A stretch of 64,000 nt of DNA from assembly GCA_026417655.1 (NCBI GenBank), contig JAOACS010000018.1, forward strand, positions 1-64,000, read 5' to 3'. Under the pieces are notes generated by a model. The model saw only the letters and a list, made by a program, of their open reading frames with translations. It was not told the DNA's origin and searched no databases. The stretch comes from Syntrophobacterales bacterium (lineage in GTDB: Bacteria > Desulfobacterota > Syntrophobacteria > Syntrophobacterales > Thermodesulforhabdaceae). A program made the position numbers and the translations under genes. Positions 280-58,277 of this stretch are shown piece by piece (the stretch's first letter is position 1; each line of letters starts with the position of its first letter).

Positions 280-1786
280 AGATATTAGATCATGTTGAAC
301 TATACAAAAGAGAAGACTACAGAAGACTCTTTGAGGAAAAAAAAAATTTGAATGCCCTTACTCAGAGGAGGAAATAAAGGCTGTTGAGGAATACACAAGG
401 ACAGAGGAATATAAAGAAAAAAACTTTGCCCGTAAAGCATTGTCAATTAATCCAGCAAAGGCATGCCAGCCACTTGGTGCTGTGCTTTGCGCATTAGGAT
501 TTAGGGATACTCTTCCCTTTGTCCATGGCTCGCAGGGGTGTGTCGCCTATTTTAGAAGTCACCTAAGTAGACATTTCAAAGAGCCTGTTCCTGCTGTTTC
601 AACCTCAATGACGGAGGATGCAGCTGTATTTGGAGGATTAAGCAATATGATTGAGGGGCTTGAGAATGCCTATGCCCTTTATAAGCCTAAGATGTTTGCA
701 ATATCAACAACATGCATGGCTGAGGTAATTGGAGATGACCTTAATGCCTTTATAAAAAAGGCAAAACAGCAGGGTGTAATTCCTGAAGAAATGCTAACTC
801 CCTATGCAAATACTCCGAGTTTTGTCGGTTCACACATTGATGGATATGATGCGATGTTAAAAGGAATCTTAAGCTACATGACTGCAGGGCAAAAATCTAC
901 GAAGAATGACAAAATAAATATAATCATGGGCTTTGATACATACTCAGGAAACTACAGAGAAATAAGAAGAATTTTAAAAATTATGAATATACCCCATATA
1001 TTACTTGCTGATATAAGTGATGTTTTTGATTCCCCTAATGAGGGGGAGTATGAGATGTATCCCGGGGGAACAAGCTTAGGAGAGGTTAAGTACTCAATTA
1101 ATTCAATTGCAACAGTGGCACTCCAGAGATTTTCAACCAAAAAAACAGGTGAATTCATAAGGGATGAATGGAAGCAAACATTTATAAATGTTCCACCTCC
1201 CATAGGCATTAAGAATACAGACTATCTCCTTAATATTTTAAATGACATTACAGGAAAGCCTATTCCTGATGAGCTCCTAGAGGAAAGAGGAAGAGTAATA
1301 GATGCCATGGTTGACTCCTACGCTTACATTCATGGAAAGAGATTTGCTCTTGTAGGTGATCCAGATCTTTTGCTTGGACTTCTAAGCTTTATTCTTGAGC
1401 TTGGTGGAATTCCTGTTCATATAGTATGCACAAATGGAGATGAAGAGTTTGAAAGTAAGGCCTATGAGATTCTTAAAAGTGAACCTCTTTTTGGCTCAGA
1501 GGGAAAGGTCTATATTAAGAAAGATATGTGGCATCTAAGGTCTCTTCTTTTTACAGAACCGGTTGATTTACTTATTGGCAACTCTTACTGTAAGGCCTTA
1601 TGGAGAGATACAGGAACGCCTCTTATTAGGGTCGGTTTTCCTATATTTGATAGACACCACATGCATAGATATCCAATTATAGGTTACCAGGGTGCTCTGA
1701 ATTTACTTACCCTTATGGTTAATATTGTGCTTGATGAGATTGACAGAGAAACCATGGATTCACCAAGCTTTGATGTAATTAGATAG
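276..1786 (+). CDS. nifK: Nitrogenase MoFe protein beta chain NifK, frameshifted at an A10 run
   Basis: The start ATG at 276 overlaps the nifD stop and follows AGGAGG. The first 20 codons ([20 protein letters not shown]) look like a NifK N-terminus, then the frame hits ten adenines at 337-346 and ends at a TAA (375-377). The rest of NifK continues in the -1 frame: [16 protein letters not shown], then the P-cluster cysteine regions [17 protein letters not shown] and [12 protein letters not shown], to the stop at 1784-1786. One extra A, or a -1 slip, restores about 503 residues. No good start or ribosome site lies at the downstream frame's TTG at 440. Either there is a base-calling error in the homopolymer, or the full protein is made by transcriptional slippage or -1 frameshifting. 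NifK holds half of each P-cluster and is essential for nitrogenase. Confidence 0.9.
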
Positions 1787-1798
1787 GGAGACTGAAAA

Positions 1799-4342
1799 AT
1801 GATTGAGTCTACAATAGAAATAAAAAACTATGAAAAAGGGCAAAGGATATGCCGCTCAAGGGGTGGTGAATCCTGTGCCTTTGATGGTGCCTTGATTGTG
1901 CTACAGCCTATTGCAGATGCTGTCCATCTAATACATGGACCCATATCCTGCTCTGCAAACAGTTGGCAGGGAAGGGGCACAATCTCAGAAAGGGGATTAT
2001 TTCACAAAATGGGCTTTACAACAGATCTTTCTGAGATTGATCTCATACTTGGTGCAGACAATAAGCTTATTAAAGCCCTTGAAAGTGTGTCAAAGAGATT
2101 TTCTCCTCAGGCTATTTATGTTTATTCAACCTGTGTAACGGGGTTACTTGGTGAGGACATTGAAAGAGTCTGTGCTTTAGCAAGGGAAAAGCTTGGAATA
2201 GACGTAATTCCTGTTAATGCACCTGGGTTTGTAGGCCCTAAAAACTTAGGTAACCGTATTGCTGGTGAGGTTTTACTTGAGCATGTAATAGGCAAAGAGG
2301 AACCTCCCTTTGTAACGGAAAGGGACATAAATATCATAGGAGAGTATAACATTGCAGGGGATCAGTTTCTAATTGAGCCATTGCTTGAGGAAGCAGGATT
2401 AAGGATCCTTTCAAGGATAACAGGGAATTCCACATACAAAGAGATAAAATGGGCACATAGGGCAAAACTAAACGTGCTCATATGTAGCCGTGCCCTCATA
2501 AATATTGGGATTGAGATGAAGAAGAGATATGGAATTCCCTTTGTTGAGGTATCCTTCTTCGGAAAAACTGAAACCTCTAACGCCTTACGGGAGATTGCCA
2601 GGGCCTTCAATGACCTCTCATTAAAAGACAGAGTTGAGAACTTGATAAAAAGGGAGGAGCTTAATTTAGAGTTAAAACTTAAGGAGTATGAAATCCTTAA
2701 TGGGAAAAGGGCTGTTCTTTACACTGGAGGTGTAAAATCCTGGTCAATGATATCAGCCTTAAAGGACCTTGGAATTGAGGTTGTCGCAGTGGGAACAAAG
2801 AAGAGCACCTATGAAGATGAGGCAAAGATAAGGGAGCTTGTAAGCGATAATTGCTTTCTTTTTGAGGATACCTCCGCAAAAAATATTCTTAGAGTAATAG
2901 AGGAAAAGAATGCTCAGATTTTAATTGCAGGAGGGAGAAACCTTTATCTTGCCATAAAGGAGGGTATTCCCTTTGTTGATGTAAATCAGGAACGTCACAG
3001 AGCCTATGCAGGGTATAGAGGTCTCATAAATCTTGCCGAAGACATAAATAAAGCAATAAGTTTCTATGATAAAAGAAAAACTTCAATTCCTCTTATAAAA
3101 ATACATAAAAAAGAGGTAACCGTTGACCCTCTTAAAAATTCTTCCTTCGTTGGTGCTATTGTAGCTCTTCAGGGGATTGATAAAGCAATGCCAGTACTTC
3201 ATTCTCCACAAGGATGTAATTTTCTTGGAAAAGTCCTTCTAATTAAGCACTTCAGAGAGCCCATAGCTATGATAAGCACAAAACTTTTTACTGAGGAAGT
3301 TGTAATGGGTGGAGAGGAAAAACTAAGAAAAACCCTTGATGAACTTAAGAATGGGAAGGTTAGTTTAGTTGCCTTAGTTACGGGAGCTCTATCACACATG
3401 AGAGGAGAAAGCATAGACCATATATTAGAGCAATACAACGAAGAAGACTTTAGAGTTATTCACATAAAGATTCCTGACTATGAAGGAGGCTTTGAGTGGG
3501 GCTATGAAAGAGCATTAATGGAGATTATTAAGATTATTCCAAATGATAAGATAAACAGAAGAAAGGGTCAGGTAAATATAATTTCGGGAGGACACTTTAC
3601 CCCAGCAGATTTTACTGAGTTAAAAAAAGTTTTTAAACTCTTTGGTCTAGGCTCGATTCTTCTTCCAGATCTTTCATCCCTTGAGGGCGCGAGAAGATTT
3701 TCGGCAATTACAGAAGGAGGAACAAAATTAGAAGATATATTTGAGATGAAAAACTCTGAGTTTACCTTCATATTGGGTAACAGCCTTGAAAGTATTGGTA
3801 AGGAGCTAAAGAGAAGATTTGGTATTGAATACAAAGTATTTGAGAGCCTCTATGGATTAAAAGCCTTTGATGAGTTTTTGGAGACTCTCTCTCTGTTAAG
3901 TGAAAGAGATATTCCCCAGGAGCTTTTAAGGGAAAGAAGAATTCTTATTGATGCAATGAGAGATGTCCAATTCTATGTCTCGGGAAAAAAAATTGCAATC
4001 GCCCTTGAGCCAGACCATGCATTAGGTCTTTCAAAATTGATAGGAGAGATGGATATGTCTTTACAGTTAGCAATAGTTCCAGAAAAGACAGAATATTTAA
4101 ACAAGATAGAGGCAAAGGAGGTGTTAATTGGTGACTTAAGTGCTCTTTCTGGCGAATATAACTTAATAATCTCAAATAGTCATGCAGAGGAAAGGGCAAG
4201 AAAAATGGGGATACCCCTCTATGAGATGGGATTTCCCGTTTACAAAACTATCGGTTATCCACAGAAGGTAACTGTGGGTTACAGAGGTAGTTTAAATATT
4301 TTAAACGATATTGCAAATGTATTCCTTAGGGAGGCGCATTAA
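1799..4342 (+). CDS. nifEN: Fused NifE-NifN, scaffold for FeMo-cofactor assembly
   Basis: A single 847-residue protein. Residues 1 to about 425 are NifE-like: RSRGGESCAFDG, HGPISCSANSW and YVYSTCVTGLLGEDIE carry the cysteines equivalent to the NifD P-cluster ligands. Residues from about 435 are NifN-like, with PVLHSPQGCNFLGKVLLIKH and GFPVYKTIGYPQKVTVGYRG. There is no stop or frameshift at the junction. NifEN is normally an alpha2beta2 tetramer that receives the NifB-cofactor and matures it with Mo and homocitrate; a fusion would enforce 1:1 stoichiometry. The start ATG at 1799 is 12 bases after nifK with a purine-rich site before it. The 3' end overlaps nifX (TAATG). Confidence 0.93.
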   Translation: MIESTIEIKNYEKGQRICRSRGGESCAFDGALIVLQPIADAVHLIHGPISCSANSWQGRGTISERGLFHKMGFTTDLSEIDLILGADNKLIKALESVSKRFSPQAIYVYSTCVTGLLGEDIERVCALAREKLGIDVIPVNAPGFVGPKNLGNRIAGEVLLEHVIGKEEPPFVTERDINIIGEYNIAGDQFLIEPLLEEAGLRILSRITGNSTYKEIKWAHRAKLNVLICSRALINIGIEMKKRYGIPFVEVSFFGKTETSNALREIARAFNDLSLKDRVENLIKREELNLELKLKEYEILNGKRAVLYTGGVKSWSMISALKDLGIEVVAVGTKKSTYEDEAKIRELVSDNCFLFEDTSAKNILRVIEEKNAQILIAGGRNLYLAIKEGIPFVDVNQERHRAYAGYRGLINLAEDINKAISFYDKRKTSIPLIKIHKKEVTVDPLKNSSFVGAIVALQGIDKAMPVLHSPQGCNFLGKVLLIKHFREPIAMISTKLFTEEVVMGGEEKLRKTLDELKNGKVSLVALVTGALSHMRGESIDHILEQYNEEDFRVIHIKIPDYEGGFEWGYERALMEIIKIIPNDKINRRKGQVNIISGGHFTPADFTELKKVFKLFGLGSILLPDLSSLEGARRFSAITEGGTKLEDIFEMKNSEFTFILGNSLESIGKELKRRFGIEYKVFESLYGLKAFDEFLETLSLLSERDIPQELLRERRILIDAMRDVQFYVSGKKIAIALEPDHALGLSKLIGEMDMSLQLAIVPEKTEYLNKIEAKEVLIGDLSALSGEYNLIISNSHAEERARKMGIPLYEMGFPVYKTIGYPQKVTVGYRGSLNILNDIANVFLREAH

Positions 4343-30546: not shown

Positions 30547-31689
30547 ATGGGGTTTACTCTATGGTGGATAAGGCTGTGGTCGCTTACGGTAAAGGAACTT
30601 CTCCAGTTTTCTAGAGATGGTTTTCTAATTATTGCTATTACCTATATGTTCACACTCGATATATGGCTTAGTGGAAACATTCATATTGAGCTCCACAGGG
30701 CTTCCATGATTTTTAAAGATGCGGATCAGAGCGAGTTTTCCAGAGAACTTATCTCACGCTTCCGTTCACCCTATTTTCGTATGGAGGGAGAGGTCTTTAG
30801 TGAAAATGAAGCGGTATCTCTTCTTGATAGAGGCGAGGCTATTTTGCTTATTGATATACCAGAACATTTCCAGCAGGATTTATTATCTAGACGATCCGTT
30901 GACGTTCAGCTAATGATAGACGGTAGCAATACGATAATAGGCACTTTGACCTCAACCTACGGGAGTCAGATCATCGGGGAATATAGTCTGGATATAGGAT
31001 TAGACCTTTTAAGGTTTCATCTAGATAGACTTGAGGCCATACCTAGGGTGGAGCTACGCCCAAGAGTCTGGTATAATCCGAATCAGGAAGATGAAAGGTT
31101 TCTACCAATTTCGGAGCTTCTTACTGTTATAACGATTTGTGGACTCATGCTTCCAGCCGCTGCGGCGGTGAGAGAAAAGGAAAGGGGGACGATTGAACAA
31201 CTTCTGGTTTCTCCCCTTACTCCCGCTCAGATTATGATACCTAAGGTCTTCTCAATGACTCTAGTTGTGCTAATAGGGACTATGGTTTCAGTGTTTGGTG
31301 TAATAAAGGGCATCTTTGTTATTCCAATAAAGGGAAGCCTTATCTTTTTCTTTTCAACGGTGGTTCTCTACACTATAGCTGTCTCTGGCATGGGGCTTTT
31401 TATTTCAACATTTACGAAAAATCTTGCTCAAGTAGCTATGCTTGTTCTAGTTGTGGCAATGCCGGTAGTGTTACTTTCCGGTGCCTGGACCCCCCCTGAA
31501 GCTATGCCCCTTTGGCTCCGACGGGCTATTCATCTTTCCCCGCTATACTATTTCATTGAAATGAGCTATGGGATTTTACTTAGGGGCGCAGGCTTTGAGG
31601 TGCTTTGGCTCCATTTTCTAGGGCTTTTCCTCTTGGGATCCGGAGCGTTCATCTTCGGAGCCTACAGATTCAGACGCCAGTTTGGATAA
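30547..31689 (+). CDS. ABC-2 type permease 2 (YbhR-like)
   Basis: 380 residues, a paralogue of the preceding permease. There is an N-terminal helix (GFLIIAITYMFTLDIWL), a periplasmic domain, then five helices. VREKERGTIEQLLVSPLTPAQ is the family motif, and LSGAWTPPEAMPLWLRR precedes the last helices. It would heterodimerise with permease 1. It begins 13 bases after it. Its last 72 bases overlap the 3' end of the convergent cbiH gene, so the two transcripts are antisense to each other over that stretch. Confidence 0.88.
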   Translation: MGFTLWWIRLWSLTVKELLQFSRDGFLIIAITYMFTLDIWLSGNIHIELHRASMIFKDADQSEFSRELISRFRSPYFRMEGEVFSENEAVSLLDRGEAILLIDIPEHFQQDLLSRRSVDVQLMIDGSNTIIGTLTSTYGSQIIGEYSLDIGLDLLRFHLDRLEAIPRVELRPRVWYNPNQEDERFLPISELLTVITICGLMLPAAAAVREKERGTIEQLLVSPLTPAQIMIPKVFSMTLVVLIGTMVSVFGVIKGIFVIPIKGSLIFFFSTVVLYTIAVSGMGLFISTFTKNLAQVAMLVLVVAMPVVLLSGAWTPPEAMPLWLRRAIHLSPLYYFIEMSYGILLRGAGFEVLWLHFLGLFLLGSGAFIFGAYRFRRQFG

Positions 31690-32553
31690 CTTTTCCAAAG
31701 GGTAGCCTCTGGGAGTAACCATTAGATTGTTCCAGACATAGGTTTGGCTATTCCCCACAATGATTACTGAATGCATGTCAACCTCTTCTATAGGAATTGA
31801 GGCTAGGGAGCAAACAAGAGACCTTTGTCCTTCTCTCGCTGCCCGCCATACGATCCCAACCGGAGTATCGGAAGATCTATGTTCTTTGATAATGGTTATA
31901 GCTTTTTCAAGAAGATGGGGCCTCGTAGCGCTTCTAGGATTGTAGAGGATAATAACAAAATCGCCCTGTGAAGCTAGATGGAGTCTTTTTGTTATAAGCT
32001 CCCAGGGAGTTAGGTGATCGCTTAAGCTCACAACAGCGAAGTCGTGCATTATGGGAGCCCCAAGAATGGATGCTGCTATGTTAAGGGCAGATACCCCTGG
32101 AATGATTCGAAGAGCGATGGAGTTTTCAACTTCAGATGTTTCGGTATCCTTAAACCTAACAGAAATGTCGGCTTGTTTACAAAGCTCTAGAGCAAGTCCC
32201 GCCATTCCATAGATGCCCGCATCTCCACTGGAGATCAAGGCAACGGTCTTTCCACTCAGGGCATGTTCTATCGCTATACGGCATCTTTCCGTCTCTTGGC
32301 GCATCCCTTTACTGACGAAGGTCTTCGATGGAAAGAGGTCCTTTATAAGATAGATGTAAGTCCTATACCCCACTATGATTTCCGCCTTCTGAAGAGCCTC
32401 AAATGCTTCAGGAATCATATAACGTGGAGAACCGGGTCCTATACTTACAATCGAAAGGGAACCCGAGCTACCGCTATGGTGGCATTTTGAGATTTGTTCT
32501 TCGGGATTATCAACCGAGCTAATGGATTCAGTGCTATTGGTGCTGCTTCGCAT
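31618..32553 (-). CDS. cbiH: Precorrin-3B C17-methyltransferase CbiH (CobJ)
   Basis: A SAM-dependent tetrapyrrole methylase of up to 311 residues. The core begins at residue 33 with SIVSIGPGSPRYMIPEAFEA. GYRTYIYLIKD and ISSGDAGIYGMAGLALEL (SAM site) follow, then IIPGVSALNIAASILGAP, typical of CbiH/CobJ, which methylates C17 and contracts the ring. The ATG at 32553 gives a 32-residue polar leader that overlaps cbiG by 109 bases; no better start codon exists before the core. Thus the leader is real or a non-standard start is used. It is the last gene of the cbiF-cbiG-cbiH operon. Its 3' end overlaps the convergent permease gene. Confidence 0.9.
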   Translation of the reverse strand: MRSSTNSTESISSVDNPEEQISKCHHSGSSGSLSIVSIGPGSPRYMIPEAFEALQKAEIIVGYRTYIYLIKDLFPSKTFVSKGMRQETERCRIAIEHALSGKTVALISSGDAGIYGMAGLALELCKQADISVRFKDTETSEVENSIALRIIPGVSALNIAASILGAPIMHDFAVVSLSDHLTPWELITKRLHLASQGDFVIILYNPRSATRPHLLEKAITIIKEHRSSDTPVGIVWRAAREGQRSLVCSLASIPIEEVDMHSVIIVGNSQTYVWNNLMVTPRGYPLEKLSKLASESVGSEDERSGSQEEKP

Positions 32554-33533
32554 ACTCCCTTTACTCCTATGTGTTTTTGGACGGTTAAGGATGGGTTTGG
32601 AACCGATATGGCATTAAGGCTATCACGGGAGACGAACAAAAGAGGCACACCAAGTCTTTCGGCAGCCTGCCTTAAGCCATCTTCTTCTCGCTTAATTTCG
32701 ATAGAGACGAGAGCCTGAATAGAACCTAAGAATAATCTTTCTCTTTGAAAGACCCATTCTATAAGGAAAAGTATTTCCTCCTCCGGTGTTCCTCGGTTGC
32801 ACCCAACTCCTACAAGAAGGTTTTTTGGGTGTAACCTAAGGCAATTGAGGTCTTCAGGAGGGAGGGTCTCCGAAACCCATATGCCCTGTAACTCAGCGTA
32901 ACACTCATCGATGTCCCTAATAGTCACAAGAGAGGGATAGTCCCTTCTTAGTTCTGGGGCAATGAGTTCTTCGGGATCGAAGATCCACATGGGTTCGCCA
33001 TCAAGAAGCCGCCTCATCGTTACTGCAAGGCTTGAGGAGGCATTATCAGAGGGCTCAACAACAAGTCCTCTATCTCTGGCCATAATATCTAGGGCGATTT
33101 TACCTCTTAGATCCGAAGCGGTTGTAATAACGGGTGTTGCTCCTAAAAGCTCTGCTATCCGTTTGGTCCAGTAATTAGCTCCCCCAATATGGCCGGAGAG
33201 GAGGCTTATTACGAATTGGCCCTTCTCGTCCAGGACAATAACGGCGGGATCGGTATGTTTTTTTCCGATAAGAGGGGCTATGGTTCTTACAACAATTCCT
33301 GTAGCCATTATACAGACTATGACATCACAGCTTTGCCAAAGGCTGGAAAGCAATGGAGCGAGTCTGTGAAAGGGGTGTGACTTAGTGGTTCTATGGGAGA
33401 GGTGGCTATAGGCGCTCCGTGATAGGTAGACCTTAGAGTTATCGAGAGTTTTTTCAAGTTGAACGGCCAACTTCCCAGCTTCCTTCGTAATCGCAACAAT
33501 GGCTATATTACTTCCTAACCTTTCTGAAGCCAT
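32445..33533 (-). CDS. cbiG: Cobalt-precorrin-5A hydrolase CbiG
   Basis: 362 residues from the ATG at 33533 (MASERLGSNIAIVAITKEAG); an earlier in-frame ATG at 33602 would run deeper into cbiF. Typical CbiG blocks are seen: CIMATGIVVRTIAPLIGKK, VVILDE-type VIVLDEKGQFVISLLSGHIGG and the C-terminal LVGVGCNRGTPEEEI. CbiG opens the delta-lactone and releases acetaldehyde in the anaerobic (cobalt-early) pathway, so its presence points to anaerobic B12 synthesis. It overlaps cbiF by 26 bases and cbiH by 109. Confidence 0.93.
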   Translation of the reverse strand: MASERLGSNIAIVAITKEAGKLAVQLEKTLDNSKVYLSRSAYSHLSHRTTKSHPFHRLAPLLSSLWQSCDVIVCIMATGIVVRTIAPLIGKKHTDPAVIVLDEKGQFVISLLSGHIGGANYWTKRIAELLGATPVITTASDLRGKIALDIMARDRGLVVEPSDNASSSLAVTMRRLLDGEPMWIFDPEELIAPELRRDYPSLVTIRDIDECYAELQGIWVSETLPPEDLNCLRLHPKNLLVGVGCNRGTPEEEILFLIEWVFQRERLFLGSIQALVSIEIKREEDGLRQAAERLGVPLLFVSRDSLNAISVPNPSLTVQKHIGVKGVCEAAPIALNPLARLIIPKNKSQNATIAVARVPFRL

Positions 33534-34275
33534 GGGAGAAATTACCATCGTAGAGTAAAGATCGCTTAGTTTCGTCCCGATCACCAAAGACCTTTCCAAC
33601 AAGTATAAGGGCCTGCCTGTTGATACCTGCTTGTTTCACCTTTTCTCCTATATCCTCTATAGTCCCGTGAAGGAAGGTCTCATCGGGCCATCCGATCCGG
33701 TATGCGACAACCACAGGGGTATCAGAAGGATAGCTCTCGACAAGTTCTCTGGTAAGCCGTTCAATATGTTGAACACTTAAGTAAATTACGAGAGTGGTTC
33801 TATGGGCCGCAAGAGATCTTAGCGATTCATCATCTGGTACCGGTGTTCTTCCTGCAAATCTAGTTAAAATAAGGGTCTGGGATATACCGGGAACGGTCAG
33901 CTCTCGCTTAAGGCGAGCTGCTGCAGCAAAGACTGCTGAAATTCCAGGGACGACTTCGTAAGGTATTTTATCACGATCTAGTAGGACCATCTGTTCGTGT
34001 GTAGCCCCATATAGTGAGGGGTCCCCTGAATGGAGACGAACGATCAGTTCGCCGTTATGGTATCCTTCAACAATTATGGCATGGGTTTCTTCCAAAGTAA
34101 GGGATGAACTGTCAATAAGTTTTGCACTTGGCTTTGAAACCTTAAGAAGCTCCTCCGGAACAAGGGATCCGGCATAAATTATTCGGTCTGCCTCTTCTAA
34201 TAATTTTTTCCCTTTTACAGTTATAAGTTCTGGATCCCCGGGACCTGCTCCCACAAAATATACGGGAAATGGCAT
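33508..34275 (-). CDS. cbiF: Cobalt-precorrin-4 C11-methyltransferase CbiF (CobM)
   Basis: 255 residues. The N-terminus PVYFVGAGPGDPELITVKGK is the SAM-binding start of the precorrin methylases. YAGSLVPEELL and RLHSGDPSLYGATHEQMV distinguish the C11-methyltransferase. TRFAGRTPVPDDESLRSLAA and VVAYRIGWPDE are also as in CbiF/CobM. The ATG follows AAAGGAG. It lies 103 bases after the BtuF-CbiZ gene in the same direction and is coupled to cbiG by overlap. Confidence 0.94.
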   Translation of the reverse strand: MPFPVYFVGAGPGDPELITVKGKKLLEEADRIIYAGSLVPEELLKVSKPSAKLIDSSSLTLEETHAIIVEGYHNGELIVRLHSGDPSLYGATHEQMVLLDRDKIPYEVVPGISAVFAAAARLKRELTVPGISQTLILTRFAGRTPVPDDESLRSLAAHRTTLVIYLSVQHIERLTRELVESYPSDTPVVVAYRIGWPDETFLHGTIEDIGEKVKQAGINRQALILVGKVFGDRDETKRSLLYDGNFSHGFRKVRK

Positions 34276-34378: not shown

Positions 34379-36361
34379 TTATGGATAAATTCCATTAAGC
34401 ATAGCATTTAGGGCTATTATGATAGGTTCTGGTACATAATTGCCTCTAGTAACTGCTATATCTTTCCACCTAAAAGAGGTCCTTGCATGGCCATATTTCC
34501 TAGCGATCTCCTTTGCTACTAAACGGGCAAGGTCTCGAAAGGCGCTTAAATTCCCTATGTTTTTACTTTCCATAGCGTCGGAAAGTAAGAGAGCTGTTTC
34601 CATAAAGGCTTTATATCGAGGTTCAAGAAGAAGTTTTTCTATCTTAGGAAGAGCTTCGGATCTAAGATTTTTAGGAATTAGTGAGTAGAGCTCAATTCGA
34701 CGTTCTTGAAGCCGCCTGAAAATAGATCTTGTTTCGTAAAAGCCGTTTTGTTTTTGTAAAGCTTCCTTTACTCCGTCGTAAACCGCCTTTGCTATGACTT
34801 CTCCAAGGCGGGAATGGCCCCCTGTATTGTCCGAGGCTTTTCCCTTCCCACTTACAACTATGATTTCGTCGGTTCCAGTTCCTGTCGCCTGCCATCTAGG
34901 GCCGTTATAGGAGCTTCTAATGTCAAGATCTTGTAAGGCTGCTGTTTTGGCTTCTGTGGCGGTAATTATAGCTCTTGTCATGGCACGATGAGAAAGCTGA
35001 CGGTTTGTCATAAGGATTATATTGATAGTGCCACTCTCTTCCCAAGAGCCCTCATCCTTGGATGTACGGAGAGCGTTAGATTCGGCCCCAGCCGTAATAA
35101 GAGCGTAAACCACTAAATCGCCATGGATTTTCACCTGAACCGAAAGATTATCCATATCTGCACCGGTAAAAAGAAGAGTTGTTTCCGATGGTATTAAACC
35201 TAGGGTTTCCTTAACGAGTTGTCGCCAGCTACTTAAACTTAATTGGTGGCCTATATTCCATAGGGGAGGTGGTGAAGAGTGATTTCCAATTGTTGTCTGT
35301 TTAGACCTTGGTCCGTCCAATGTGGACAAAACATCTAGCGGTTCATTAAAGCGGATAAGAAGTGTTTTATTCTGAAAATCCATCATAGTACTCTTTACTA
35401 ACTCGGCGGATGCTACGTAGTTAAGATATATTGGAATAGGTTTTCTTTCTTTGATGCCTGAGCTTAAAACCCAATTTGACTTATCGCCGAAATATTGGCC
35501 GTAGAGTGTAGAGGCGAGCCATTGAATAAATTTTCCAGTATAGGGAGATATACGGCATGTAAGATCACAGGGGAAGAAAGCTATACGTCCCTCTCTTACA
35601 GCTGTTACTTCCTTCCAACCAGGAAGAGAAAAGAATTTTTCAGCGATCTGGCGGTCCTCTCCACAGCCATATATGAATTCTGGATCGAAGGTTTTCCACT
35701 CCTCCAAGGAGATGGACACCACTTCACCCTTTTTCCCTAAAAGGGATGGCATTCCACCTGAAAGCCTTATGATTTCGTTCTGGAAGGAATTGTCTCCTGG
35801 CACCATGATTGTTTCCGAATCGTAACGACCCATAAAACGCATTACTCTTAAGGGACGTAGGTTGGGAATCTTAGAAAGTTTTTCCTTAATAAGCTCAATT
35901 TCGAAATAAATTTTGGCGATAAGATCCTCTGCTTCCCTTTGTCTATTGAAAATATAGCCCAGAGTCCTAATGTTTTGAAAGAGCCTCTCGATAGAATCCA
36001 TTTCCACCGTAATGGTGCGAATGTGAGGGAGATAGTTTTTAATCTCCCTTTGATGGACTGGGGCGATGATAATGGTATCAGGATTTAAGGATTTAATCAC
36101 TGTTAGGATTGGACGGAAGAAACTACCTACAATTTTTCGATCCTCTGTCGTCGGTAACCGATCGTGAAGAGTAATCCCCACGATTTTTTCATCTTCTTTA
36201 AGGTGCTTAAGAATCTCTGTTGCTGAGGGGACGAGAGAGACAACACGGCAAGGTGTTGACTCTTTAGCATACACGGGTAGAGAACCACCTATAGCAAGGT
36301 GAGCCAGAAGAACCAAAATTAAGATATTAAGGCATCCAATAGGGTTCGACCTAGAATTCAT
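34379..36361 (-). CDS. Secreted BtuF-like binding protein fused to CbiZ amidohydrolase
   Basis: 660 residues. A signal peptide covers residues 1-32 (CLNILILVLLAHLAIGGSL, cleavage probably after VYA). Residues about 37-300 form a BtuF/FhuD-type metal-corrinoid binding domain (RVVSLVPSATEILKHL, GRYDSETIMVPGDNSFQNEI). Residues about 325-535 are a CbiZ adenosylcobinamide amidohydrolase domain (NKTLLIRFNEPLDVLSTLDG, TAGAESNALR, GTGTDEIIVVSG, GGHSRLGEVIAKAV). Residues 540-660 are helical and unrecognised. CbiZ cleaves the nucleotide loop to give cobyric acid and is normally cytoplasmic. Here the signal sequence implies binding and cleavage in the periplasm, before import. It is upstream of cbiF-cbiG-cbiH. 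No riboswitch was seen before it. Confidence 0.85.
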   Translation of the reverse strand: MNSRSNPIGCLNILILVLLAHLAIGGSLPVYAKESTPCRVVSLVPSATEILKHLKEDEKIVGITLHDRLPTTEDRKIVGSFFRPILTVIKSLNPDTIIIAPVHQREIKNYLPHIRTITVEMDSIERLFQNIRTLGYIFNRQREAEDLIAKIYFEIELIKEKLSKIPNLRPLRVMRFMGRYDSETIMVPGDNSFQNEIIRLSGGMPSLLGKKGEVVSISLEEWKTFDPEFIYGCGEDRQIAEKFFSLPGWKEVTAVREGRIAFFPCDLTCRISPYTGKFIQWLASTLYGQYFGDKSNWVLSSGIKERKPIPIYLNYVASAELVKSTMMDFQNKTLLIRFNEPLDVLSTLDGPRSKQTTIGNHSSPPPLWNIGHQLSLSSWRQLVKETLGLIPSETTLLFTGADMDNLSVQVKIHGDLVVYALITAGAESNALRTSKDEGSWEESGTINIILMTNRQLSHRAMTRAIITATEAKTAALQDLDIRSSYNGPRWQATGTGTDEIIVVSGKGKASDNTGGHSRLGEVIAKAVYDGVKEALQKQNGFYETRSIFRRLQERRIELYSLIPKNLRSEALPKIEKLLLEPRYKAFMETALLLSDAMESKNIGNLSAFRDLARLVAKEIARKYGHARTSFRWKDIAVTRGNYVPEPIIIALNAMLNGIYP

Positions 36362-36585
36362 CTCTTTACCTCCCCTTAAAAAAATACAACCTACTTTTTT
36401 CTTGAAAGGTTTCTAAATTTGCAACCCTTTTCTTGACCTTGGGATCTCGAATCCTGTAAAAGGACTGAAGTTAGGGTAGCTACTAATGGGAATAGTGGGT
36501 AGTAACTGTTGGTTTGTGTATTGGTGGGCTTGAATAAAAGGAGATTTGGTGAGCGGGGTTTTGGATATACTTTAAGGAGGAAAGG

Positions 36586-49228: not shown

Positions 49229-50011
49229 TTATTTAGCGCTAAGAATAGGGCAGACAAGTTTTGCCCCATTCCAAGCAAGAATTTTAGTTTCTACGCCATA
49301 GACTCTCTTTATTAGTTCTTCTGTAACTATTTGGTGGGGAGGTCCCGTAGCTATGACGGAACCATCATTTATAATTACTGCATAGTCCGCAAAGAGCATT
49401 GATAGATTTGGGTCATGAAACGTTACAAGCACAGTTATTTGGCGTTCCTTGGATATGGAGCGGATTGTTGTTAGGACCTTCAATTGATTCCTAAAATCTA
49501 AATGAGAGGTTGGTTCATCCAGAATAATAACAGGGGAAGCCTGGGCTAAGGCTCTAGCGATTAGAACAAGTTGTCTTTCACCTCCACTTATTTTTGTGTA
49601 AGGTTTATTCCTTATGTGATTGATGCCCACAAGGGAGATGGCCTCCTCCGTAGCCTCGTAATCTTTCTTTTTTGGAGAAGAGAACATCCCCACGTAAGAA
49701 GCTCTTCCCATAAGCACAACATCGAAGACTTTGTATGGGAATGGTGGATGGTGGTCCTGAGGCACCATAGCAAAAAGCTGTGCCCGTTCTCTAAAGGATA
49801 ATTCACGAGTGTTCTTCCTTCCTACGAAGACTTCACCTCTAGATGGGCGCCAGAGCCCCACAATACATCGAAATAGGGTGGATTTGCCCGAACCGTTAGG
49901 GCCAAGCACTGCTGTAATTGATCCTTGGGGCGCACAGAAATTAATATCTTTGAGAATTTCTCTGCTACCTTCGTTATGTCGAAAATAAATAGATTTGACT
50001 TCAACCATCAT
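49229..50011 (-). CDS. btuD: BtuD/FecE-type ABC transporter ATPase
   Basis: About 260 residues. Walker A GPNGSGKST, signature ISGGERQLVLIARAL and Walker B VIILDEPTSHLD are in the order of the iron-siderophore/B12 importer ATPases. Three ATGs are close (50020, 50011, 50008). The one at 50011 overlaps the permease stop as ATGA and has GGGGAG upstream, so it is preferred. With the adjacent permease it forms the only BtuCD-type pump in the window, serving up to three binding proteins. Riboswitch control favours corrinoids over iron chelates. Confidence 0.88.
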   Translation of the reverse strand: MMVEVKSIYFRHNEGSREILKDINFCAPQGSITAVLGPNGSGKSTLFRCIVGLWRPSRGEVFVGRKNTRELSFRERAQLFAMVPQDHHPPFPYKVFDVVLMGRASYVGMFSSPKKKDYEATEEAISLVGINHIRNKPYTKISGGERQLVLIARALAQASPVIILDEPTSHLDFRNQLKVLTTIRSISKERQITVLVTFHDPNLSMLFADYAVIINDGSVIATGPPHQIVTEELIKRVYGVETKILAWNGAKLVCPILSAK

Positions 50012-51021
50012 ACTCCCCATGCCTCCTTTCCGCCTCTTTTCATGAGATAGATAAAAAAGGGTGCGCCAGTAAGAGCTGTAATAATACCCACTGGAATATC
50101 GAAGGTAGTTATAGTGCGTGAAATGGTATCGGCAACAATCATAAAGGAAGCTCCACCTGCAAGGCTTAAGGGAAAAAGGATTCTATGATCGGGCCCTACC
50201 ATCATTCTAACGAGATGGGGCACCATAAGACCTACCCATCCGATTATGCCACAGACAGATACGGCAGTTGCTACGGCAAGGGTTGAACAGGCGATAAATA
50301 TAATGCGATCCCTCTTTACATTAACTCCAAGGGATTTAGCCTCTTCTTCGCCCATGCTTATAACATTTAAACGCCACCTCATAAGAAAAGGTGGCATAAG
50401 ACCAAGAAATATCCCCCCGAATGCAAGTTTTACTAATCGCCAATCCGATAAGGAAAAACTTCCCATAAGCCAATAGACGATACTTTGAAGTTTATGGGGA
50501 TCTACGAGAAATTTTACGATAGACACGAGAGCGGTAAAGAAAGCAGAAACTATAACACCCGAAAGGATAAGAGGGAGACGAGAAATTTCCCCTTGAGTTC
50601 TTGCTGTAACATAGGCGAGCACTACAGCTACAATTGCCCATAAGAAAGCCATGGGCTGGACAGGAAGGAATGCAAGAAATCCTACACTTATAGCGCATCC
50701 AAAGGCAGCCCCTGCTGAGATACCGAGAATGAAGGGATCTACAAGAGGATTTCTAAAGATCGCTTGAAGAACCACTCCAGATCCCCCAAGGGATGCACCA
50801 ACGATACCCGCAAGAATTATACGGGGAAGGCGAATGTCCATTATAATAGCCCTTTCTGGAATGTCGCCAGGTTGAAAAGAGGAAAAGACATCGGAAAAGA
50901 GGATCTTAAAAACCACTGTAGGCGTAATGCCATAGACACCAATGAAAATAGCTAACCATCCCACTAGAATAGGTGAAATAGATATGAAGATGATTTTTGT
51001 AGACCTTACCGTATCGTCCAT
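50008..51021 (-). CDS. btuC: BtuC/FecCD-type ABC transporter permease
   Basis: 337 residues from ATG 51021 with AAGGAGG eight bases before; an earlier in-frame ATG at 51093 lies inside the terminator hairpin and is rejected. Many hydrophobic helices, with GVVLQAIFRNPLVDPFILGI and GAAFGCA at the usual place, and the ATPase-contact region LGVNVKRDR. GIIGWVGLMVPHLVRMMVGPDHR is the family signature. It is the first gene downstream of the cobalamin riboswitch and its terminator, thus directly repressed by adenosylcobalamin. Confidence 0.9.
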   Translation of the reverse strand: MDDTVRSTKIIFISISPILVGWLAIFIGVYGITPTVVFKILFSDVFSSFQPGDIPERAIIMDIRLPRIILAGIVGASLGGSGVVLQAIFRNPLVDPFILGISAGAAFGCAISVGFLAFLPVQPMAFLWAIVAVVLAYVTARTQGEISRLPLILSGVIVSAFFTALVSIVKFLVDPHKLQSIVYWLMGSFSLSDWRLVKLAFGGIFLGLMPPFLMRWRLNVISMGEEEAKSLGVNVKRDRIIFIACSTLAVATAVSVCGIIGWVGLMVPHLVRMMVGPDHRILFPLSLAGGASFMIVADTISRTITTFDIPVGIITALTGAPFFIYLMKRGGKEAWGV

Positions 51022-51040
51022 AGAAGCTAGCCTCCTTAGG

Positions 51041-51081
51041 AAAATAAAAAGCCACAGAAAGGTTTCATACCCTTCTGTGGC
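51041..51081 (-). terminator. Intrinsic terminator, expression platform of riboswitch 1
   Basis: On the minus strand GCCACAGAAGG, a short loop and CCTTTCTGTGGC, followed by TTTTTATTTT, ending about 20 bases before the btuC ATG. A transcription-attenuation off state is expected when B12 is bound. Confidence 0.85.
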
Positions 51082-51249
51082 CTTCGTGACCACACTTTAC
51101 ATTTAAGTAATGACACAGGGGAGCCAAAATGGCAATACACTTCATACAATTATCCTTCGATAGCCTTAACTTTGTCTAAGTTAAGAACTTTTGGTAACTA
51201 AAGGTCGCCCCATCATTGGTAAGAATCGACCTAGCCCACGTGCAAAAAG

Positions 51250-51447
51250 CCTCGACCGATCAGGCAGGTCTTCTGACTTCCCTTCGTGGATGCTACCTTC
51301 CCATCACCGGAGGTAAAAGTGGCAAATCACCCATCCCCGCTCCGTCCCTTTCTAAGTTTAGGATGGCAAGGGTCACAGCGGTGGGACCGTCCCCGATTTT
51401 CACGGAATTTCCTTTTAAGCCCTAGAAGGGCACCTGATCACAGGTTG
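51250..51447 (-). promoter_or_regulatory. Cobalamin riboswitch 1
   Basis: Minus-strand blocks in canonical order: GGTGC near 51432, GGAAATTCCGTGAAAATCGG, GACGGTCCCACCGCTGTGAC (the CCCGCNACUGU core), the B12 box GCCACTTTTACCTCCGG, GGGAAGGTAG, and the closing CAGAAGACCTGCCTG. The P1 stem is TGATCAGG with CCTGATC (51440-51433 and 51264-51258). It controls the operon btuC-btuD-cobN1-Gate-chlD-chlI. Confidence 0.93.
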
Positions 51448-51504
51448 TTATTTGTCGGCTAAAGAATGCTATTGTTAATACCAGTTAGGAGAGATTAAAA
51501 AATC

Positions 51505-53647: not shown

Positions 53648-53661
53648 TTACCACCTTGGCC

Positions 53662-54660
53662 ATGAGAAAAACCTCGCTATTGACCTATATCATATGTTTC
53701 CTTTTGGTGTTGTGGTTTCCCGAAGGTCTCTTTCCATTATCCCTAGAGGTTAGAGACTTTCGGGGTAAAGAAATAAGGCTTCTAAAACCTGCCCAGCGAG
53801 TAGTGTGTCTGATTGAAAGTGCTCTTACCGGAATCTACATGCTTAATCGAGGTGATCGGGTTGTTGGAATACCTAGAAACGTCTATGATCCGCCTACGTT
53901 TCGGTTTTATAGATTACTCGATGAACGTATAGAATCACAAAAACTTCCCGCCCCGGGTAATTGGGAGGCGGTAAGTATAGAAAATATATTAGCCCTTAGA
54001 CCAGATCTGGTTATTATTTGGTCACACCAGACCAGTGCTATAGCAGCTATTGAAAGGTTTGGAATCCCTGTCTTCGGAGTTTTCATAACCAAAGAGGAAG
54101 AAATTTATGAGGAAATATTGGCTCTTGGGAAACTTATGGAAAATGAGGAGCGAGCCAAGGAGCTTGTAGATTTTACAAAGAAGGAGAGGGAATATATTCT
54201 ATCGAAAACCACTAAAATTCCAGAATTGGAGCGACCTAAAGTGTTTTTCATGTGGGCTCAAGGTATTACAGAAACATCTTGTGGCGGCAGTATGGTGAAT
54301 GATCTTATTACCTTGGCGGGAGGCAAAAATATCTGTGGACACATTAATCAAGAGCATGGGACCCTTCAAATAGAGGATCTTGTGAGAGGAGATCCCGATG
54401 TTATCGTTATGTGGTATAATGAAAGAATGAATCCAGAGGATCTACTTAAAGATTCTAGATTGCGCAATATAAAAGCTATTCAAAATAGGCGGGTTTATGA
54501 ACTTTCTGATATCTTTACTAACGATTTATGGACTCTAAAGTTCATTATCGCCGTTCATCGTCTGGCTAGGTGGCTTCATCCAAGTATTTTTAGTGAAGCT
54601 AGCTTGGAAAACGATGAAAAAAAGATTTTAAACTTCTTCTATGGCTATCAGTTTAAGTGA
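53662..54660 (+). CDS. Periplasmic BtuF-like substrate-binding protein 1
   Basis: 332 residues with an N-terminal signal sequence (LLTYIICFLLVLWFPEGLFP). The two lobes of the class III metal/corrinoid binding family (FepB, FhuD, BtuF) are recognisable: LLKPAQRVVCLIESALTGIY, SIENILALRPDLVIIWSH and the helix-linked second lobe GSMVNDLITLAGGKNICG. ATG 53662 and an upstream TTG 53656 are both possible. It is coupled to the TonB receptor gene before it. It would hand ligand to the BtuCD pump encoded across the intergenic region. There is no lipobox, so it is soluble or anchored by an uncleaved signal. Confidence 0.87.
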   Translation: MRKTSLLTYIICFLLVLWFPEGLFPLSLEVRDFRGKEIRLLKPAQRVVCLIESALTGIYMLNRGDRVVGIPRNVYDPPTFRFYRLLDERIESQKLPAPGNWEAVSIENILALRPDLVIIWSHQTSAIAAIERFGIPVFGVFITKEEEIYEEILALGKLMENEERAKELVDFTKKEREYILSKTTKIPELERPKVFFMWAQGITETSCGGSMVNDLITLAGGKNICGHINQEHGTLQIEDLVRGDPDVIVMWYNERMNPEDLLKDSRLRNIKAIQNRRVYELSDIFTNDLWTLKFIIAVHRLARWLHPSIFSEASLENDEKKILNFFYGYQFK

Positions 54661-57260: not shown

Positions 57261-58277
57261 ATGCTCCTAAATCCACCGGCTGACTTTTTGAGAAGATTTG
57301 GTTTGGTGGCTTGCTTGGCTTTAGTCATAATGTCTTTATGGGTAGAAGTTTCTGGGGGAGCCTCTTCTCTTACTCTTACCGATAAACTTGGTAGGACTAT
57401 CACCGTTCAGGTCCCAATAAAAAGAGCTGTGGTTGTCATCACCTATGAACTGATACCGGCCCTTGGCATCTGGGATCAGGTGGCAGGAGTATCCAGGTGG
57501 GCTGAGAAGGAATGTGACATATACAAGGCTATTATTGAAAGGTGGCCCCACCTAAAAAAGCCCCATGTTGGTACTGGAACCGACGTTAATATTGAGTCCG
57601 TAATGGTTCTAAACCCTGATCTTGTTATCACCTGGAGTTATAATTCCAGTGTGATTAATTTTATGGAAAATAAGGGGATAAAGGTCTATTCCCTATATCC
57701 TGAAAATCTCAAAGAACTCTATGATGTAATCCGGGTCCATGGAGTCCTTTTTGGAAAGGTAGATAGAGCTGAAGAAATAGTTACCGAAGTAGAGAAAATC
57801 CTAAAGCTTATCAAGGGGCGTGTCGATGAGATCCAACCAGAGAAAAGACTTAAGGTGGTGCACCTTTTAAGTAAGCCTACGACAGTTTCTGGAGCTATTG
57901 GGATCACAAACGATCTTATTGAGGTGATCGGTGCGGTAAATATTGGGGGTGAGATGAGGGAAAGGAATGCTGATGTGTCCGTTGAGAGAATAGTTAAATG
58001 GAACCCTGACGTGATTTTTATTTGGGGGAATGCAGGGTATGGCCCTGAGAGGATTTTAAACAATTCACAGTGGCAATCTATAAGGGCTGTTCAGAATGGA
58101 TACGTTTACAAGCTTCCAAAATGGTCAACCTGGTCACCGAGGATTGCCATTGTAGCCCTATGGATGGCCATGAAGGTTTATCCCGAAAGATTTTATGATG
58201 TCTACTTCCAAGAAGTGGCCGAGAGTTTCTATACCAAAATTTTTGGGATCTCCTATTCTCAAGTAGTAAATAAGTAG
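57261..58277 (+). CDS. Periplasmic BtuF-like substrate-binding protein 2
   Basis: 338 residues. N-terminal signal segment FGLVACLALVIMSLWVEVSG after an RR pair. Lobe 1 begins LTDKLGRTITVQVPIKRAVV and continues SVMVLNPDLVITWSYNSSVI; lobe 2 contains GITNDLIEVIGAVNIGGEM and SVERIVKWNPDVIFIWGN. This is the ABC-type metal-chelate/B12 binding family. It is partner to receptor 2 and ends 9 bases before the convergent cobN2. No dedicated permease is adjacent; it probably shares the BtuCD genes at 49-51 kb. Confidence 0.87.
   Translation: MLLNPPADFLRRFGLVACLALVIMSLWVEVSGGASSLTLTDKLGRTITVQVPIKRAVVVITYELIPALGIWDQVAGVSRWAEKECDIYKAIIERWPHLKKPHVGTGTDVNIESVMVLNPDLVITWSYNSSVINFMENKGIKVYSLYPENLKELYDVIRVHGVLFGKVDRAEEIVTEVEKILKLIKGRVDEIQPEKRLKVVHLLSKPTTVSGAIGITNDLIEVIGAVNIGGEMRERNADVSVERIVKWNPDVIFIWGNAGYGPERILNNSQWQSIRAVQNGYVYKLPKWSTWSPRIAIVALWMAMKVYPERFYDVYFQEVAESFYTKIFGISYSQVVNK

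Follow-up and report, generated by a model that had tools for sequence, protein, structure and literature searches.

A secreted BtuF-like/CbiZ fusion protein as a likely periplasmic corrinoid amidohydrolase in the corrinoid uptake of Desulfobacterota

In the window analysed here, a stretch of 64,000 nucleotides from a Syntrophobacterales genome, one gene encodes a protein of 660 residues in which a BtuF-like binding domain, a CbiZ domain and a helical C-terminal domain follow a signal peptide. We consider it likely that this protein acts as a secreted, periplasmic corrinoid amidohydrolase within a B12-repressible corrinoid uptake system. Cobamide remodelling is held to be cytoplasmic, taking place after uptake; here, the trimming of vitamin B12 relatives would probably precede uptake and take place outside the inner membrane. 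An extracytoplasmic and B12-repressed corrinoid amidohydrolase, with predicted activity and substrate, is well supported by what can be read in the DNA, namely the domain architecture, the secretion signals, the conserved CbiZ residues, the riboswitch and uptake context in relatives, and the host genes for CbiB, CobT, CobS and the importer. The gene and its parts are as follows.

34379-36361, minus strand: secreted BtuF-like/CbiZ/CobZ-like fusion protein, 660 aa (open reading frame, Pfam, AlphaFold2)
36370-36377, minus strand: Shine-Dalgarno-like AAGGGGAG, 8 nt upstream of the ATG of the fusion
36266-36361, minus strand: signal peptide, residues 1-32, predicted cleavage after VYA (sequence, family controls, AlphaFold2 helix at 7-24)
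35489-36244, minus strand: BtuF-like periplasmic binding domain, residues 40-291 (Pfam, fold match)
34742-35458, minus strand: CbiZ amidohydrolase domain, residues 302-540, Pfam 337-531 (Pfam, AlphaFold2, conserved residues)
34382-34741, minus strand: helical C-terminal domain, residues 541-660, probably a degenerate CobZ (alpha-ribazole phosphatase) domain (profile comparison)

The open reading frame starts with ATG, and the position of AAGGGGAG supports a start that takes in the signal peptide. In Pfam, Peripla_BP_2 covers residues 40-263 (E 6.7e-23, above the gathering score), while CbiZ (PF01955) covers residues 337-531 over its full profile, 1-191, with E 9.2e-50 and a score of 169.7 bits against a cut-off of 27. 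The AlphaFold2 model, built from 41 family members, has a mean pLDDT of 87.7 and a pTM of 0.84; in it, the last 120 residues are helical. The earlier note on this DNA had proposed that a binding domain and CbiZ are joined behind a secretion signal, and the reading frame, the Pfam matches and the N-terminus bear this out. A sequence search of the PDB with the fusion returned, among the matches listed, only binding proteins and no solved relative of CbiZ.

The N-terminus, MNSRSNPIGCLNILILVLLAHLAIGGSLPVYA followed by KE, shows a charged n-region, a hydrophobic core and the VYA site; in the AlphaFold2 model, the helix at 7-24 is followed by a low-confidence stretch. Secretion across the family was assessed with a simple script that looks for an uncharged hydrophobic N-terminal segment, applied together with control proteins. 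Such a segment was found in 110 of 118 fusion sequences, a set that includes some contigs present twice, once per collection; the negative ones are truncated or mis-started reading frames or have the segment interrupted by charge. The same script gave 38/40 for separate BtuFs, 0/15 for cytosolic CbiZ of the same phylum and 0/19 for the CbiP/CobD/CobT controls. Four fusions carry a clear lipobox (L035, L038, L040 and L053). The predicted secretion signal thus holds family-wide, as signal peptide or lipobox, and is absent from the 15 cytosolic CbiZ proteins. We rejected the alternative of a cytoplasmic fusion made from a start further downstream, since the ribosome-binding sequence suits the upstream ATG and secretion signals are retained throughout the family.

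Secreted CbiZ proteins of about 275 aa without a binding domain also occur (L025, L057, L058, L059 and L061). The four secreted stand-alone CbiZ genes with long flanks all adjoin TonB receptors, and three of them also a separate BtuF. Secreted stand-alone CbiZ beside a separate TonB receptor and BtuF or BtuFCD indicates that a split counterpart of the fusion exists. Two shortened fusions (L049:6627-8180 and L052:1491-3050) keep their signal peptides and have a partial binding domain before CbiZ. At three loci, a CbiK (sirohydrochlorin cobaltochelatase) with a signal peptide adjoins secreted CbiZ or stands near the fusion (L058:8377-9348, L059:6475-7359 and L084:508-1404).

Missing catalytic residues would have spoken against an enzyme, and an alignment of the fusions with 20 non-fused CbiZ proteins (cytosolic and secreted ones, CbiS, and that of D. 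mccartyi, taken from a plasmid) showed the domain to be intact, in the sense of conserved residues rather than residues mapped as catalytic. The positions invariant in the 20 non-fused proteins are retained in the window fusion and in nearly all of the 118 fusions; in the window fusion they are S346, N360, T399, T423, G425, N429, E442, T445, N447, E470, K472, H516 and G520. To the same set belong A492 and G494-D498 of the ATGTGTD motif. The exception is S434, which is G in non-fused CbiZ and S in most fusions, while position 400 is G in the fusions, in D. mccartyi and in CbiS, and A in most other non-fused CbiZ. In a tree of the CbiZ domain, one group holds the cytosolic 390-aa enzymes and another the fusions together with the two shortened versions; the short secreted CbiZ branch beside the fusions, a placement that is weakly supported. 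The substrates of known CbiZ enzymes are adenosylated corrinoids; such forms may be in short supply in the periplasm, which would count against CbiZ activity there.

The C-terminus had been described earlier as 120 helical residues of a type that could not be named. The helical part of this description stands, and the type can be replaced by a resemblance to CobZ. These 120 residues are conserved across the fusion family and match nothing in Pfam; their sole NCBIfam match is CobZ TIGR03161, with an hmmscan E of 0.1 and a score of 12.9 bits, below the cut-off of 152.5. The whole fusion matches CbiS NF038002 into the C-terminal region, again below the cut-off (84.7 against 250 bits). A profile of 38 fusion C-termini and the CobZ domain of L043, a CbiS-like protein from the same phylum as the fusion host, align along their full length, with a probability of 90 and a score of 41.3, compared with best scores of 18.2 for 250 random fragments and 18.7 for 100 shuffles. 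The motifs of the L043 CobZ domain are mostly missing from the fusion C-termini. A Foldseek search of the domain against the PDB gave no match, so the CobZ link rests on the profile comparison, and we regard the C-terminus as probably a degenerate CobZ domain, which may serve the fusion as a non-catalytic support. The C-termini of the 390-aa cytosolic CbiZ proteins are unrelated to it, apart from a weak match in L039. A weak CobZ-family match in G013 was set aside as a repeat-type protein (HEAT-like by eye).

A search for the architecture in other genomes showed that the fusion is a family and not a one-off. CbiZ occurs in 58 of 297 sampled Desulfobacterota genomes, most of them with the fusion architecture, and 38 extracted sequences, the one from the window among them, combine a signal, the binding domain and CbiZ with this same C-terminus. 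Both Pfam domains scored above the curated cut-offs in all 22 family members scanned. A scan of public genomes found 356 stretches encoding relatives of the fusion; the best 80 of the 356 are, judging by record titles, nearly all from Desulfobacterota and include Desulfonema magnum, Desulfosarcina widdelii, Desulfogranum marinum, Desulfospira joergensenii, Desulforhopalus singaporensis and strain NaphS2. Among plasmids, tblastn with the fusion gave single-domain matches only, and a short CbiZ peptide query gave none.

In the relatives, gene context supports the role in corrinoid uptake that had been suggested for the fusion. Of 27 loci, 23 have a same-strand cobalamin riboswitch at the head of the fusion gene or of the gene run that includes it, and the other four have lost the upstream part at a contig end. 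In L101, L123, L132, L143 and L160, at most 200 bases, free of any reading frame, separate the riboswitch from the fusion gene, and the same-family relatives L044 and L079 also have one. Frequent neighbours are a TonB receptor, BtuF, BtuC, BtuD and ExbB/ExbD/TonB. With such control, the fusion in relatives is expected to be made on B12 shortage, like an uptake gene. The neighbourhood in the window is as follows.

33508-34275, minus strand: cbiF, precorrin-4 C11-methyltransferase, next gene after the fusion
32445-33602, minus strand: cbiG, cobalt-precorrin-5A hydrolase
31618-32553, minus strand: cbiH, precorrin-3B C17-methyltransferase
49229-51093, minus strand: btuD and btuC, corrinoid-type ABC importer, behind a cobalamin riboswitch
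51246-51452, minus strand: cobalamin riboswitch, upstream of btuC
53656-54660, plus strand: separate BtuF-like binding protein, downstream of a TonB-dependent receptor
57261-58277, plus strand: second separate BtuF-like binding protein, downstream of a TonB-dependent receptor

The fusion and cbiF are separated by 103 bp with no terminator-like site between them. The earlier note had placed the fusion at the head of a cbiFGH operon; the three genes do follow it on the same strand, but the linkage is local, since a same-genus relative (L080) has the fusion after a riboswitch and a TonB receptor instead. No riboswitch or other RNA family was found near the window's fusion gene, and the riboswitches in the window precede btuCD and one cobN. 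Regulation of this fusion, which has no riboswitch of its own and sits with cbiFGH, may therefore differ from that in relatives. Positions 41322-62386 of the window form a large corrinoid/cobalt island, which contains two cobN, two ChlI/D-like genes, btuCD, two cobalamin riboswitches and a pair of TonB receptors, each accompanied by a BtuF-like gene. At 440-4342, two adjacent nitrogenase-like reading frames (NifD/K/E/N type) were seen by eye. The host genome (2.3 Mb, 96% complete) contains no CbiZ other than the fusion, and it encodes CbiB, CobS, CobT and three FecCD-type permeases.

Combined, these features suggest the following route. A TonB-dependent receptor would admit cobamides or cobinamide to the periplasm, where the BtuF-like domain would keep the corrinoid beside the CbiZ domain. 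The latter would hydrolyse the amide bond to the aminopropanol arm, so that the nucleotide loop comes off and cobyric acid is left, a product proposed by analogy with known CbiZ enzymes. A separate BtuF with docking glutamates would carry the product to BtuCD, and inside the cell CbiB, CobT and CobS would complete the cofactor again, now with the lower ligand that the cell itself uses. Catalysis, substrate, product and ferrying by a second BtuF are the parts of this explanation that we infer.

How the product reaches the importer and whether the CbiZ domain works at all bear on two other readings. In one, the fusion itself is the binding protein of BtuCD, which captures and cuts the corrinoid, docks and hands the product straight over, as the earlier note had it. 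Type II binding proteins such as BtuF dock on the permease via one glutamate per lobe. The binding domain of the fusion resembles BtuF in its secretion signal and its two-lobed fold with a helical backbone, and a fold search of the PDB matched it to BtuF and to haem- and siderophore-binding proteins; that it binds a corrinoid is suggested by its context. In 3 of 80 named loci (L096, L111 and L123), moreover, btuC directly follows the fusion and no separate btuF is called. The pair of docking glutamates, however, is not conserved: by alignment, Glu occupies these positions in 41/42 and 40/42 separate BtuFs of fusion loci, compared with 29/118 (position 87) and 68/118 (position 220) of the fusions, the window fusion having T87 and E220. 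Separate BtuF genes are also present in many of the same operons, and in the window btuCD lies more than 12 kb away and two separate BtuFs are present. We therefore judge direct hand-over unlikely; the loss of the glutamates in the fusions and their retention in the separate BtuFs indicate that a second BtuF probably ferries the product. C233, C265 and C269, within the motifs YGCG.D and FPC.LTCR, are near-invariant in the binding domain of the fusions, where they might form a disulfide or act as cobalt ligands, and C233 and C265 are atypical of separate BtuFs. In the other reading, the CbiZ domain is catalytically dead and serves as a second corrinoid-binding or sensing module. The neighbouring C-terminal domain, which looks like a decayed CobZ-like enzyme, shows that decay is conceivable here, but near-complete invariance of the CbiZ-wide residues in 118 fusions is unexpected for a domain that only binds, and this reading is highly improbable. 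The conservation pattern points to a capture-and-cut protein, with delivery probably left to a separate BtuF.

A third reading comes from the operons of many relatives, in which the order is TonB receptor, DUF2162, MotA/ExbB, DUF2149, fusion and CobN under a cobalamin riboswitch (L151:4262-13978, for example; also L162, L136, L044 and L079). We liken this operon to the Hmu set, in which HmuT and HmuV are assigned to such DUF families. Its CobN carries a signal peptide, and the one tested has HmuS dechelatase as its best PDB match (508 bits, against 445 for CobN). The parts of the Hmu system and the dechelatase function of HmuS are described for the Bacteroides hmu operon (PMC12583661). In common with this haem system, the relatives place the fusion among a TonB receptor, DUF2162, MotA/ExbB, DUF2149 and a secreted HmuS-like chelatase; they differ in having a cobalamin riboswitch, and BtuF-CbiZ where Hmu has a haemophore. 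CbiZ might then trim corrinoids to give the secreted HmuS/CobN-like protein access to the cobalt, and so open a broader periplasmic processing of tetrapyrroles. The Hmu-like set, however, is absent from the host genome: with regard to the HmuR/T/U/V/S genes, no DUF2162 was found there, both of its two CobN lack a signal peptide, and the one window CobN tested has CobN as its best match. A CobN-type gene is present in only 25 of 79 named fusion loci, some of which are incomplete, and we know of no precedent for cobalt release from a corrinoid by an HmuS/CobN-like protein. Dismantling to obtain metal or ring, as the purpose of the fusion, is thus quite improbable. A wider periplasmic route in Desulfobacterota, in which BtuF-CbiZ opens the corrinoid before import and, in many members, a secreted HmuS-like chelatase linked to a proton channel goes on to remove or exchange the metal of the trimmed corrinoid, all under cobalamin riboswitches, is conceivable but doubtful.

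The preferred reading, trimming within uptake, sets the fusion apart from its known counterparts. The CbiZ enzymes of archaea, Rhodobacter sphaeroides and Dehalococcoides share with it a complete domain, the conserved residues and the expected reaction; they are salvage or remodelling enzymes described without secretion (PMC7733943, PMC3541065), whereas the window CbiZ is predicted to be secreted and is fused to a binding domain. BtuF of BtuCD shares the signal peptide and fold and, in relatives, the operon context and cobalamin riboswitch, while the fusion has three family-specific cysteines, an enzyme and no conserved docking glutamates. CbiS has CbiZ and then a CobZ-like domain in the same order but is bifunctional as an enzyme and lacks a binding domain, and the fusion has lost most CobZ motifs. 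CbiR of Akkermansia likewise opens the nucleotide loop and enables remodelling, with a fold other than that of CbiZ and a cut at another bond (PMC7733943). Coupling of CbiZ and CbiR to uptake was suggested earlier (PMC7733943). Our literature search found no description of a secreted or BtuF-fused CbiZ, although the original CbiZ papers may mention fusions.

The fusion proteins are soluble, and cultured species have them, which makes the idea testable now. If it holds for sulfate reducers across the phylum, their uptake specificity could rest on the cobyric acid core and not on the lower ligand. The cobamides of neighbours could then become usable via one importer, and cobyric acid would enter a periplasmic, perhaps shared extracellular, pool.
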